Of a DNA stretch of 39,715 bases, positions 16,144 through 39,705 are shown piece after piece. The translations under genes and the position numbers were made by a program. The notes under the pieces are model-generated. The model was given only the letters and a program-made list of their open reading frames with translations, made no database searches and was not told the origin of the DNA. This DNA is from Gallionellales bacterium GWA2_55_18 (GTDB taxonomy: Bacteria > Pseudomonadota > Gammaproteobacteria > Burkholderiales > Gallionellaceae): NCBI GenBank assembly GCA_001801055.1, contig MGWP01000047.1, forward strand, positions 1 to 39,715, given 5' to 3'. Every line of letters begins with the position of its first letter. Positions within the stretch are counted from its first letter, which is position 1.

Positions 16144-17733
16144 TTAGTGAACCCCTAAATTTTTCCCCGCCATCACTTCGGCTACGGTGTAGAACGACCC
16201 GAAGGCCGCGATTCTATCATTTTCACCCGCCGCGTTACAGGCATAACGCAACGCTTCGCCGACGTTATGGAAGGCTTGAATTTCCCCGCGCACGCCGCGC
16301 TGCCGCAACACTTGCGCCAGCTCATCGGCGCTCGCGCCACGCGGTGCGGCGATACCCGCCACCAGCCAGGTATCGATATGCGGATCGAGCGCCGCCGCCA
16401 CCCCCGCCATGTCCTTGTCCCCAAGCATCGCAAACACCGCCCAGGTATGCGGACAGGGCGGCAAGCTGGCGAGATTTTGCGCCAGCGAGCGCGCCGCATG
16501 GGGGTTGTGCGCCACATCCAAGATCAGCGCCGGTTTGCCCGGTATAACCTGAAAACGCCCTGCCAATCGCACCTCGACCAGCCCGCGCCGCACCGCCTCC
16601 ATACTCACCGGCAAGCGCTCCTTCAGCGCATCCAGCGCCGCCAACACCGCGCAGGCGTTGTTAAGCTGAAATGCGCCGCGCAACGCCGGGTACGGCAAGG
16701 AATTGCGCGCGCCGATTGTGCTGCGGTAGTTCCACTGCATCGACCCCTTCCCCCTCCCCTCCCCCGGAGGGAGAGGGGCTTCTAGTTCCCTCTCCCTCCG
16801 GGGGAGGGCTAAGGAGGGGGAGTGTGAGATGACAATAGTGCGTGATACATCGCCACTTCCCTCTCTGATGGAACTACTAGCCATCTGACTAGGCTGTCCA
16901 ACAACGACAGCCAAGTCATTGGTTACCTCACTCCCTCTCCCGCCTGCGGGAGAGGGAAGTTGAAACCCAAATTCCCGCCCGATCCGCCAAAGTTGTGCGC
17001 CAACTTTTTCGGCATGGTCAATAATCGCCTGCGGCACATCCGCATCCGCACAAATAGCCACCTTGCCGCTGCGGAATATCCCCGCCTTCTCGAAAGCGAT
17101 CTGCTCGCGCGTCTCGCCGAGGTAATCGGTGTGGTCGATATCCACATTGGTCACCACCGCGCAGTCGTTATCGAACGCGTTAACCGCATCCAGCCTGCCG
17201 CCCAGCCCGACTTCGAGAATCGCGACATCCACCTTGTGTTCGATGAAGCACTGCATCGCCGCCAGCGTGCCAAATTCAAAATAGGTCAGGGGAATATCAA
17301 CCGGTGCTGACGGTTGCCCCCTCCCCTTCAAGGGGAGGGTTGGGGTGGGGATGGGTATCTCGTCATTCGCGCCTTGCCCTTTGCGCGCCCGCTCGATTTT
17401 TTCAAAGGAAGCGCACAACTCCGCATCGCTCGCCTGCCGCTTGCCGATGCGCACGCGCTCGTTGTAATGCAGCAGATGCGGCGAGGTGTAGCAGCCGACC
17501 CGGTATCCGGCGGCGTGCAGCATGCTTTCCAGCATCGCGCACACCGAACCCTTGCCGTTGGTGCCGCCGACCGTGATGATGGGAAAATCAGGCTGTAGAT
17601 TCAACCGCTGCTTGACCTGCGCCACGCGCTCCAGGCCGAGCGCGATGGTCTTGGGATGCAGGGATTCGAGGTAGCTTAGCCAGTCGTGTAAATTCATTTT
17701 CCGGGCGAATCGCGGTGTCGCGTGCTCGCTCAT
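16144..17733 (-). CDS. folC: Bifunctional folylpolyglutamate/dihydrofolate synthase with repeat-derived insertions
   Basis: TVGGTNGKGSVCAMLESML, HLLHYNERVRIG, EVGLGGRLDAVNAFDND; likely native ATG at 17697 (MNLHDWLSYLE); two in-frame insertions encoded by palindromic repeats. Confidence 0.93.
   Translation of the reverse strand: MSEHATPRFARKMNLHDWLSYLESLHPKTIALGLERVAQVKQRLNLQPDFPIITVGGTNGKGSVCAMLESMLHAAGYRVGCYTSPHLLHYNERVRIGKRQASDAELCASFEKIERARKGQGANDEIPIPTPTLPLKGRGQPSAPVDIPLTYFEFGTLAAMQCFIEHKVDVAILEVGLGGRLDAVNAFDNDCAVVTNVDIDHTDYLGETREQIAFEKAGIFRSGKVAICADADVPQAIIDHAEKVGAQLWRIGREFGFQLPSPAGGRGSEVTNDLAVVVGQPSQMASSSIREGSGDVSRTIVISHSPSLALPRRERELEAPLPPGEGRGKGSMQWNYRSTIGARNSLPYPALRGAFQLNNACAVLAALDALKERLPVSMEAVRRGLVEVRLAGRFQVIPGKPALILDVAHNPHAARSLAQNLASLPPCPHTWAVFAMLGDKDMAGVAAALDPHIDTWLVAGIAAPRGASADELAQVLRQRGVRGEIQAFHNVGEALRYACNAAGENDRIAAFGSFYTVAEVMAGKNLGVH
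16743..16960. repeat. Composite palindromic repeat (GC-rich arms flanking hairpin core A) inside folC
   Basis: Arms cctcccccggaggg.../ctccctctcccgcctgcgggagaggga flanking the 48-nt core; same architecture at 28419-28590. Confidence 0.8.
16878..16925 (-). repeat. 48-nt hairpin repeat, copy A (inside folC)
   Basis: Minus strand: TAACCA A TGACT T GGCTGTC GTTGTTG GACAGCC T AGTCA GA TGGCTA. Confidence 0.9.
17311..17356. repeat. Solitary GC-rich palindromic arm inside folC
   Basis: cccctccccttcaaggggagggttggggtgggg, near-identical to the left arm at 28419-28462; translated PIPTPTLPLKGRGQP. Confidence 0.8.
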
Positions 17734-17807
17734 TCCTCGCCTACTATCAAGGTATGTCTCATCATTCGCTGCGCGGCTCCTTGCGCTTCATCCCGGAAAA
17801 TGAATTT
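17690..17807 (+). mobile_element. 118-bp MITE-like element, copy 1
   Basis: Perfect 16-bp TIRs AAATTCATTTTCCGGG / CCCGGAAAATGAATTT; ~80% identical to reverse complement of 29248-29365 (also 118 bp). Confidence 0.85.
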
Positions 17808-17827
17808 CCAAAGTCTCGTTGAACATC

Positions 17828-23283: not shown

Positions 23284-23312
23284 AACGGCGGCCCAATATT
23301 GAGCCGCCGTTA
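23284..23312 (-). terminator. Rho-independent terminator downstream of fimV
   Basis: Minus strand AACGGCGGC-tcaatattgg-GCCGCCGTT followed by TTCTTTTT. Confidence 0.8.
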
Positions 23313-23358
23313 ACCAATGACTTGGTTGGCGTGGTTTGCCAACTTAGTCAGATGGCTA
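23311..23358 (+). repeat. 48-nt hairpin repeat, copy C (between fimV stop and its terminator)
   Basis: TAACCA A TGACT T GGTTGGC GTGGTTT GCCAACT T AGTCA GA TGGCTA. Confidence 0.9.
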
Positions 23359-23372
23359 TACAAAGCATCAAA

Positions 23373-26084
23373 TTAACCGATTTGATCGAGCAGGGATTGC
23401 GCGGTTTCACGCTGCCCCTCGTCACCCTCGCGCAGAACTTCCTCAAGAATTTCTCGCGCACCGACGGCATCGCCCATTTCCTGATAGGCCTTGGCCAAAT
23501 CGAGTTTTGTCGCAACCTCGTGCCAATGTTCATCTTTGGCATCTGGTGCCGGTTCGCTCGGCATTGCCGTGTCATCCATATTCAGGCTGATATCCGCCAA
23601 GTCGATTTCGGCGGGTTGTACTTTTGGTGCTGGCTTCGCGGCCATATCTGCCACCGGAAAATCCAGCGTAAACTCCATTCCGTCTTCATCAACCGGCGCT
23701 TCCTCTACATGCTCAGCTTCCGGCTGCGCCGCAGGCATGGGCGAATGGGTTGACGTGACATCAAAAACCAAATCGTTCAGATCCGACGATTCCGCTTCGG
23801 CCTGCCCACCGGTTTCCGGTATTGGAGAGTCGGTTGAAGTAATATCAAAATCCATCCCTTCCGGCGCGCTGAGTGATGTACTGTCGGATGATGTTATATC
23901 GAAACCCGTCTCGACCGGCGCAGCCAGCGAAGATTTAGTCGATGTCACATCAAAATCCATGGATTCTTCCTGAACTGCAACCATGTCCTCAGGCGACACA
24001 ATCGCGGTCTTGTCCGCATCGCCCAAATCGAAATCCACATCGGCAGCCAGTGCCTCCTGCGCCGTTGATGTATCGTCCAAAACAAAGTCCGGGCTGAATG
24101 TGCTCATTTGTTTGGCCATGCTACCCACATCTTCATTTGCATCGATCGCGGCTATCTGCATGGTCGCGCTATCCGCATCCTCAATGGTTCCACCGCCATA
24201 CATCGGGTTATTCGGTTCCAGCTTGCGCCCCATTGTGGCGGCCTGCTGCCACGCCTCTTCATCACCGGAGTCCTGCAACTGGCGCGCGATTGCAGAGAAA
24301 GAATTTGTATCTTTGCGGTTGAGGTAAATGCCCAGCAATTTCAGATGGATCCGATGATCGTCCGGCATTCTATGCAAAGCATCCTTCAGTATCTCTTCCG
24401 CCTGCACATCACGCCCGAAATTCAGGAATAAATCCGCCTCGTTAATCGGATCGACATCATCCGGTTTGGCGCCTTCTTCAACTACTGGCGCCGCTGCCAC
24501 GCTGGTAAAATCACCGGTTTCCGGAGATGGTGCAACTGGTGCGGTGATACGCCCGGTCTGCACACCGTCATCCTTGCTGTCGGCAGCAGTGAAGGCGCGT
24601 TTGCGGCGGTTCAACATAAAGCCGATACCACCCAAGCCAAGCAGGATCGCCACCACACCGATGAGATAAAGCGGCTCACCAAGAATCGTATCTACCAGGG
24701 AAGGTTCCGGTGCAACCACTTTAGGTTTCGGCTTTGGAGCTGGTGCCGGTTTGACCGCACTGGCGGCAGCTATTTCGCTGGCTGCAATAACCGGTGAAGC
24801 TGCGGCCACATCGGATGCTGCGCCTGGAGATTTCAACAATGCCGCAGCCTCGGCTTTCAGTTCGGCGAGGCGCTGCATATCCTTGAGGTTCTTTTCCAGC
24901 AATGCGGTACGCGTTTGCTCCTCTTTCAAGGTCTTGGCCTTCGCAATCGCATTTTCCTGCTCGGCATTCTTCCTGTCTTGCGCAGTCTGGGTTTTTCCTG
25001 CCGCACCAGTGTCAGCCTTGTCTCCGGGTGCTTCGCCCTTGGACAATCTCAGCACTTCTCTGGCGGATTCTTTGGCAATTGGCGCCTTATCTGCAACCGA
25101 ACTGGCAATCTTGCCGGTGGCGACTTGCTGTGCATCTTGAGGCTGGCTACTGGTTGTAGCAGCGCTGGCCAGTTTTTGCCGGTAGGCATTCCAGTCTGCC
25201 GTCTGGGCGCGAATCTCCTTTGCCGCATCGGACTGCCCCACACCCATCAACTCACTCTGATCCGGCAAACGCAAAATTTTGCCAGCCCTGATGCGATTCA
25301 TGTTCTTGCCGTCGAATTGATCGGCATTGGCACGATATAACGCGACCAGCATGCGCTCCAGACTTACTTCAGCCGGCTTGTTCTGCGCGGCAATTTTGTT
25401 CAATGTGTCGCCGCTACGAACGATGATATCGCCTGTGGCTATACTCTTTTCCCGTGATTCAGCGGCAGCTCGCTTTGCCGGTGCAACCATTGTCTGTCTT
25501 TCGTCAGGTTGGCTCTCAGCGGCTTCCGGGGCGACCTGCTCTGCGGGCTTGGCTACCATTTTCGGTGGAGCGGATTGCACTGCCGGCGCTACGGTTTGCA
25601 CTTCCGCTTGCTTGGGCTGTTCGACAGCATAACCTGGCGGATCCAGCAGAAAAGTATATTCGCGCAACAGCCTGCCGGATGCCCAGGACAATTCGACCAG
25701 AACGCTTACGAAGGGATCGTTGACCGGTTGCTCGCTGCGTACTTTGAGATATGACTCGCCATTCGCGCGGCTTTCGATCTGGAACTTGAATTTATTGCCG
25801 TAAGGGTATTCCAGCCCAGCGCCCTTATAGGCATCGGGTGAGGCAAGGCGTGCAACCAAGCTGGCTTTGTCGGCCTTGCCGACCGCCACCAATTCGATAT
25901 CGGCTTTCAGCGGTTGACCCAAAGCGGAAGCCACATTTATTCCACCCATGCCAACGGCAGAAACATATGTGGACAGTGTCAAAGCAGCAACGAACCCGAG
26001 CAGCTTCAGTGTAACCAGCGACTTGGCTGTGGTCTTATGACAGCCTAGTCGAATGGCTAGTAGTTTTAACAGTGACTTTCGCAC
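23373..26084 (-). CDS. fimV: FimV/HubP-family protein (LysM, C-terminal TPR-like FimV domain)
   Basis: GGINVASALGQPLKADIELVAV N-terminal FimV motif, LysM-like GDTLNKIA, TM segment, acidic repeats FDITSTDS, C-term LDLAKAYQEMGDAVGAREILEEVLREGDEGQRETAQSLLDQI. Confidence 0.93.
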   Translation of the reverse strand: MRKSLLKLLAIRLGCHKTTAKSLVTLKLLGFVAALTLSTYVSAVGMGGINVASALGQPLKADIELVAVGKADKASLVARLASPDAYKGAGLEYPYGNKFKFQIESRANGESYLKVRSEQPVNDPFVSVLVELSWASGRLLREYTFLLDPPGYAVEQPKQAEVQTVAPAVQSAPPKMVAKPAEQVAPEAAESQPDERQTMVAPAKRAAAESREKSIATGDIIVRSGDTLNKIAAQNKPAEVSLERMLVALYRANADQFDGKNMNRIRAGKILRLPDQSELMGVGQSDAAKEIRAQTADWNAYRQKLASAATTSSQPQDAQQVATGKIASSVADKAPIAKESAREVLRLSKGEAPGDKADTGAAGKTQTAQDRKNAEQENAIAKAKTLKEEQTRTALLEKNLKDMQRLAELKAEAAALLKSPGAASDVAAASPVIAASEIAAASAVKPAPAPKPKPKVVAPEPSLVDTILGEPLYLIGVVAILLGLGGIGFMLNRRKRAFTAADSKDDGVQTGRITAPVAPSPETGDFTSVAAAPVVEEGAKPDDVDPINEADLFLNFGRDVQAEEILKDALHRMPDDHRIHLKLLGIYLNRKDTNSFSAIARQLQDSGDEEAWQQAATMGRKLEPNNPMYGGGTIEDADSATMQIAAIDANEDVGSMAKQMSTFSPDFVLDDTSTAQEALAADVDFDLGDADKTAIVSPEDMVAVQEESMDFDVTSTKSSLAAPVETGFDITSSDSTSLSAPEGMDFDITSTDSPIPETGGQAEAESSDLNDLVFDVTSTHSPMPAAQPEAEHVEEAPVDEDGMEFTLDFPVADMAAKPAPKVQPAEIDLADISLNMDDTAMPSEPAPDAKDEHWHEVATKLDLAKAYQEMGDAVGAREILEEVLREGDEGQRETAQSLLDQIG
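26012..26059 (+). repeat. 48-nt hairpin repeat, copy D (inside the 5' end of fimV)
   Basis: TAACCA G CGACT T GGCTGTG GTCTTAT GACAGCC T AGTCG AA TGGCTA. Confidence 0.9.
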
Positions 26085-28418: not shown

Positions 28419-28590
28419 TCCCCCCTCCCCCTTCAAGGGGGAGGTTGGGAGGGGGATGGGGATAAAACACGCATCCAGAAAATCACCCCCATCCCCTGAT
28501 GAAACCACTAGCCATTCGACTAGGCCGCTAAAAGACAGCGGCCAAATCGCTGGTTAACCCTAACCCTCCCCTTGAAGGGGAGGGAATGAT
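28419..28590. repeat. Composite palindromic repeat (GC-rich arms flanking hairpin core B) between leuB and leuD
   Basis: Left arm ccccctcccccttcaagggggaggttgggaggggg, right arm taaccctccccttgaaggggaggga (inverted relative to left), core in between. Confidence 0.85.
28509..28556 (-). repeat. 48-nt hairpin repeat, copy B
   Basis: Minus strand: TAACCA G CGATT T GGCCGCT GTCTTTT AGCGGCC T AGTCG AA TGGCTA. Confidence 0.9.
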
Positions 28591-29239: not shown

Positions 29240-29373
29240 GCCTCTAGAAATTCATTTTGCGGGATGAAGCGCAAGGAGTCGCGCAGTGAGTGACGAGGCA
29301 TATCATTCAGATAGACGAGGAGCGAACGAGCACACGACACCGCGATTCGCCCGCAAAATGGATTTATAGAGGC
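29240..29373 (-). mobile_element. 118-bp MITE-like element, copy 2 (core 29248-29365), TIRs extended to 24 bp
   Basis: GCCTCTAGAAATTCATTTTGCGGG / CCCGCAAAATGGATTTATAGAGGC; reverse complement aligns without net length change to 17690-17807. Confidence 0.85.
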
Positions 29374-31624: not shown

Positions 31625-31642
31625 TGCTCTGGCTGCGGGGTG

Positions 31643-31673
31643 CAAATTTAATCCGAACACGACCCCTTTAGTT
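31643..31673 (+). repeat. Direct repeat, left flank of vapBC
   Basis: caaatttaatccgaacacgacccctttagtt; 30/31 identical to 32406-32436. Confidence 0.95.
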
Positions 31674-32366: not shown

Positions 32367-32405
32367 CCCGGAAAAAACTGAAAACCGTGGCATCTCCTGT
32401 TGTTC

Positions 32406-32436
32406 AAATTTAATCCGAACACGACCCCTTTAATTC
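32406..32436 (+). repeat. Direct repeat, right flank of vapBC
   Basis: caaatttaatccgaacacgacccctttaatt. Confidence 0.95.
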
Positions 32437-39613: not shown

Positions 39614-39705
39614 ATTCCGGTTCAAACTGGACACGCATTCCACGGCAAACTGGACAGCCATTCCAGAGCAAACTGGACACTGATTCCACGGCAAACTGGA
39701 CAGTA
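39614..39705. mobile_element. Four 23-bp tandem repeats, probable terminal repeats of an IS21-family-like element continuing past the window
   Basis: attccggttcaaactggacacgc / attccacggcaaactggacagcc / attccagagcaaactggacactg / attccacggcaaactggacagta at exact 23-bp spacing. Confidence 0.6.

Follow-up and report, generated by a model that had tools for sequence, protein, structure and literature searches.

In-frame palindromic repeats at two loops of FolC in a Gallionellaceae genome

Results

The window FolC carries two repeat-derived inserts

The window analysed here is a 39,715-nt stretch of DNA (contig MGWP01000047.1 of Gallionellales bacterium GWA2_55_18), and its source genome is a draft Gallionellaceae MAG that is 71.5% complete. 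The features of the window are collected in Table 1. The FolC open reading frame scores 417 bits against the NCBIfam equivalog PRK10846, for which the cut-off is 360. Its sequence is that of a conserved enzyme, and we infer that it is active as a dihydrofolate and folylpolyglutamate synthase. The preliminary description of this DNA had raised the matter of a second intact folC, and none was found in the MAG at its 71.5% completeness. The protein probably starts with MNLHDW at 17697 because the 12 residues upstream fall in another repeat. This 125-nt repeat lies at 17689-17813 and again at 29242-29366, as inverted copies that are 82% alike; it runs into the 5′ end of the FolC frame, where it supplies the listed first residues MSEHATPRFARK, and the same peptide also precedes FolC in loci L013 and L030.

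Table 1. Coordinates of the FolC gene, its inserts and the element A copies in the window
Feature	Position	Strand	Basis or remark
FolC ORF	16144..17733	-	529 aa as listed
Site-1 insert, net 27 aa, between two helices; arm palindrome 17314-17355	17299..17382	-	length comparison; pLDDT
Site-2 insert, net 70 aa, between two beta strands	16741..16962	-	length compared with relatives; pLDDT < 50
G-rich REP hairpin CCCTCTCCCGCAGGCGGGAGAGGG, older layer	16933..16956	-	repeat and folding analysis; same hairpin in relatives
Element A, 60-nt covarying hairpin and tail, younger nested insertion, codes VTNDLAVVVGQPSQMASSSI	16866..16925	-	profile match; 60-nt difference from relatives; covariation
38-nt linker, homologous between insert-bearing relatives	16819..16856	-	matches FolC loci only, in the stretches compared
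Arm dimer palindrome, 21-nt perfect arms 16757-16777 / 16788-16808	16757..16808	-	repeat search
48-nt hairpin-only element A copy	23311..23358	+	profile match; no Pfam domain in crossing frame
Element A copy crossed by no open frame	26012..26071	+	profile match
Element A copy B, between G-rich arms	28497..28556	-	frame closed by stop

Using fixed anchors, we counted 220 residues between REFGF and QWNYR (site 2) in the window FolC as compared with the canonical 150, and at site 1 we counted 52 residues as compared with 25 in FolC without an insert. Both inserts are repeat-derived and in frame. The preliminary description had reported the in-frame insert at site 2, and this is borne out when canonical length is taken as the reference; the site-1 insert is an addition to that description. 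The claim that the site-2 insert consists entirely of composite repeat does not hold, since the linker is unrepeated within the sequence stretches that we compared. In folding analysis the site-2 insert DNA is much more stable than shuffled sequence (z = -8.2), with none of 200 shuffles equal to it, and element A forms a strong hairpin. We also looked for a terminator at the insert and found none.

The AlphaFold model of the protein has a mean pLDDT of 84 and an intact FolC fold, and its best PDB match in Foldseek is E. coli FolC (1w78), with a TM-score of 0.94 normalised to 1w78. Values of pLDDT below 50 are found at residues 113-122 and 261-317, numbered from MNLHDW, and these residues lie within the two inserts. 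Both inserts are thus predicted to be disordered, one between two helices and the other between two strands.

Two other repeats were seen in the window. Three copies of a tandem repeat with 23-nt spacing (ATTCC...GGCAAACTGGACA) occupy 39614-39703, and a 34-nt direct repeat (CAAATTTAATCCGAACACGACCCCTTTA) occurs at 31640-31673 and 32402-32435, the copies being 94% alike and 762 nt apart.

Element A is a dispersed, covarying 60-nt hairpin

Element A is a 60-nt unit made of a 48-nt stem-loop and a 12-nt tail near GTAGTTTCATCA, with a consensus near TAACCA(GC or AT)GACTTGGCTGTCGTTNTTTGACAGCCTAGTC(GA or AG)ATGGCTAGTAGTTTCATCA. A profile seeded from two copies gave 110 matches in the sequence stretches searched. 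The length is 60 nt in 64 of 76 distinct full copies and 54 nt in 6; the base that follows is G in 72 and the base that precedes is A in 57, and the junction is A or G followed by G. When surroundings were classed by a simple pattern rule, 30/82 copies lay in G-rich REP arms and 18/82 lay in or beside another element A. The stem covaries strongly, as 9 of its 17 pairs have changed on both sides among 54 distinct copies, with 65 double-change cells as compared with 17.4 in shuffles and with every slid control far lower. A GTAG lies just 3′ of the 48-nt hairpin; in the GTAG-tagged REP class, the tag is unpaired and at one end of a palindrome of 20-40 bp. Element A is present in 116 of the 151 genomes of the family and in 20 of 300 genomes drawn from the order, and its range takes in Gallionellaceae and a few other families of the Burkholderiales order.

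Two to three of the six frames of element A are free of stops. It had been claimed that element A with two GC-rich arms also occurs between genes at 28419-28590, and that the homologous frame of this copy B is closed by a stop; both statements are correct, as copy B lies between G-rich arms and its frame reads GTC TTT TAG. The further claim that an open frame is not automatic stands, but such a frame is common, the FolC frame being open in 62/76 full copies.

Element A is nested in an older insert

Five FolC loci (L010, L011, L012, L024 and, from Sideroxydans, L104) have an older REP-dimer insert that includes the hairpin CCCTCTCCCGCAGGCGGGAGAGGG and the homologous linker, all without element A. 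The older insert is thus found in two named genera, Sideroxydans and the genus of the window. Compared with L010 and L024, the window FolC is longer by exactly 60 nt, TAACC...CATCA, which lie between GAGG and GAGAGGG, and no target duplication was found in this comparison, which covers one site. Following the linker, the window FolC has one more arm palindrome. These alignments show the site-2 insert to be layered, with an older REP dimer inside which element A was later nested.

In the favoured reading, a REP-type dimer first entered the site-2 turn of FolC, giving an allele common to relatives by descent or exchange, and element A then inserted precisely into a REP arm without target duplication, presumably moved in trans by some enzyme. 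The usual 60-nt length keeps the frame, such that stop-free orientations would persist in genes while other orientations would be purged.

Inserts at both FolC sites turn over among relatives

Among 80 FolC loci from named genomes, nearly all of those outside Gallionellaceae are of canonical length or off by a few residues, and a number of the loci are unmeasurable with the anchors. One exception is L161, with 21 extra low-complexity residues at site 2. The insert peptide is absent from the orthologs of distant families, so a reading as native sequence is not supported. Because FolC outside the family is almost always without them, both inserts are derived.

We measured 67 FolC rows, nearly all from Gallionellaceae with a few outgroups, and inserts of at least 5 residues are present at site 1 in 22 and at site 2 in 14 of these. 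The FolC tree, which is weakly supported and on which gain and loss are indistinguishable, has at least 18 changes of presence at site 1 and at least 11 at site 2. Many close species have neither insert, and the length and sequence of the inserts vary widely. The inserts come from unrelated repeats, namely G-rich arms, GTAGGTCGGG-type palindromes, an LDSRLRGND-type repeat, and element A, which occurs in the opposite orientation at site 1 of another species (L069). Related inserts are found at the same site in independent assemblies. No site-2 insert is present in the nearest species on the FolC tree (G059, locus L030), from which it follows that inserts are also lost or exchanged between species.

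In Candidatus Nitrotoga, two loci (L121 and L123) have site-1 inserts of 18 and 24 residues that are not obviously any palindrome seen elsewhere, and one of them has a tandem LQGNDE unit.

Element A lies in frame in many conserved genes

In relatives, open frames cross element A in FolC, PolA, MutS, PurL, TilS, CysS, SucB and TadA, and further frames over element A belong to an SNF2 helicase, a DEAD/HA2 helicase, an ABC ATPase, a P-type ATPase and a UvrD-type helicase. Within the MAG itself we examined 29 matches, of which those in the genes for FolC, BioD, a PAS/HisKA protein and a PUA/methyltransferase protein are firmly in-gene. For MutS and BioD, solved relatives are without most of the segment that bears element A. 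Copies outside the MAG were recruited by their similarity to the one in FolC, and the proportion lying within genes should therefore not be read as a rate.

For 22 copies, codon usage marks coding right up to both sides of element A. The frame is open in 20 of these 22, as compared with 36% expected from the frames of the element A copies themselves (binomial p ~1e-7, which is indicative only, given the recruitment by similarity and as some of the 22 share a genome or gene family). With a wider gap, up to 11 of 42 copies classed as in-gene appear frame-shifted and 6 more have stops; this rule also takes in copies between neighbouring genes, such as the one at 28497, so the frame-shifted copies are not clean gene breaks. 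Candidates for genes broken by element A were set aside, as their excised frames resemble by eye non-coding shadow frames.

Several frames contain more than one repeat. In the BioD of the MAG (L187:1383-2225), element A, together with a second repeat-like peptide (DGTTRRCEASGAGVPSDRLLPQTAGYA), makes up about 50 extra residues, and two or three element A copies, some of them nested, occur per ORF in L049:636-3053, L213:3-2258 and L065:3-2213. Relatives of element A also lie in frame within genes for an alanine racemase and for an aminotransferase in other families of the order (L231 and L232), so entry into genes extends beyond Gallionellaceae.

Candidates for mobilising element A

Genes for Y1 transposases, the RAYT type associated with GTAG-tagged REPs, are present in 51 of the 61 genomes of the genus, and their copy number correlates with that of element A (rho 0.57 across the 36 better genomes, with kinship uncorrected). 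None of the Y1 loci fetched adjoins element A, and the complete genome G040, like some other genomes, has element A copies without any Y1 match. A Y1 transposase is a candidate mobiliser only by this correlation in copy number. IS110 transposases were rejected, being absent from several copy-rich genomes, and plasmids and phages were rejected as carriers, as element A had no match in plasmid or phage records.

Discussion

The insert as a probable tolerated passenger

We conclude, with a probability of roughly 0.87, that the site-2 insert consists of layered palindromic repeats in a permissive loop of FolC, translated as a tolerated and disordered passenger. That the insert is translated is something we infer. 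A bolder proposal is that life in proteins has shaped element A as a mobile element, with gene-internal copies as a main reservoir. We regard this as unlikely. If true, such a reservoir would explain the stop-free frames of element A on both strands as well as its frame-neutral length, and the two FolC loops would be true insertion hot spots and not merely tolerant sites.

Outside the insert, dN/dS is about 0.17 (0.14-0.18 in pairs that include the window copy). Among six insert-bearing FolC genes it ranges from 0.14 to 0.21 outside the insert and from 0.3 to 1.4 within it. Pooled pN/pS is 0.79 inside and 0.26 outside, the value for the insert being rough as the insert is short, its alignment near the 3′ arm is uncertain, and the palindromes constrain the DNA. 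Because these ratios are low outside the insert and higher inside it, we conclude that the body of FolC is under purifying selection, and that the insert evolves nearly neutrally except that its frame stays open. If the inserts were instead kept by selection for a function in FolC, for example in regulation or binding, the retention of the older insert in Sideroxydans and in the genus of the window would be accounted for, but the near-neutral ratio, the variable length and sequence, the unrelated repeats in the same loops, and the many close species without inserts make such a role very improbable.

Even less probable is that the repeat is cut from the mRNA or skipped by the ribosome, such that FolC is made without it. 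Element A is strongly hairpin-forming, and small bypassed hairpins occur in other systems. With removal or bypass, stops and frames would be irrelevant, yet 20 of the 22 coding-flanked copies are open and in frame, and an Rfam search of the window, intron families included, gave no family match. Removal at the RNA level, a possibility raised in the preliminary description, is thus disfavoured, since copies that lie in genes avoid stops and shifts of the frame. Least likely of all is that the window FolC is a pseudogene or that the assembly is wrong here. The incomplete draft leaves room for this, in that another folC could be missing, but purifying selection acts on the remainder of the gene in pairs that include the window copy, the 71.5% complete MAG yielded no other folC, and independent assemblies share related inserts at this site.

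Comparison with known systems

Returning to the repeat as a passenger in FolC, the precedents are intragenic REPs, treated below, and the Rickettsia palindromic elements (RPEs). RPEs are dispersed palindromic repeats found both between genes and in frame within conserved protein genes, and a gmk with an RPE insert is translated and active (PMC2229807, PMC10969869). Like RPEs, element A has a long stem-loop, here a covarying hairpin of 17 pairs, and has copies in frame within unrelated conserved genes. Unlike RPEs, which are 105-146 bp in Rickettsia (PMC2229807, PMC10969869), it is 60 nt in most full copies (64/76), belongs to another lineage and uses frames on both strands. Element A is best read as RPE-like in behaviour but not an RPE, judged by length, lineage, and model searches in which element A peptides matched no Pfam or NCBIfam model. 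The preliminary description had likened the retention of a structured repeat in frame in an essential gene to RPEs in principle. This comparison is supported, with neither the peptide in distant families nor a second folC in the 71.5% complete MAG coming to light, but it needs to be widened, as the insert is layered, two loops are refilled across a genus, and the core is dispersed in many genes. Palindromes that invade proteins are known above all from Rickettsia, whose members are obligately intracellular, and a separate family here does likewise in environmental iron-oxidising bacteria, in genes for replication, repair, tRNA and folate functions.

Small non-autonomous repeats such as Correia/NEMIS, ERIC, RU-2 and RU-3 also have open frames that are fused in frame to genes (PMC2229807). 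Element A resembles these small bacterial MITEs in being a small repeat with open frames joined in frame to genes, but differs in being a single 60-nt hairpin, not 100-200 bp with terminal inverted repeats, and in having no target duplication at the one comparable site.

REPs of the GTAG and CGTC superfamilies are palindromes, often dimers, that are mostly intergenic but also occur in ORFs; intragenic insertions in Thauera and R. conorii span 43-82 aa, and two Xanthomonas species share a REP insertion region in recB (PMC3733652). The GTAGGTCGGG-type inserts in the FolC of relatives resemble this class, as do the G-rich arms. Element A differs from it in its greater length (60 nt), in having GTAG 3′ of the hairpin, and in inserting into REP arms. 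Within the library searched, we found no paper linking folC with REPs, nor Sideroxydans with REPs. The filled and empty states of the FolC loops in many species offer a test of repeat translation, of its cost, and of the origin of protein segments. What is most unusual about the system is that repeats of several families recur at one pair of loops in a single enzyme; the nearest report that we found is that of Xanthomonas recB, unlike which several families fill two FolC loops across a genus.
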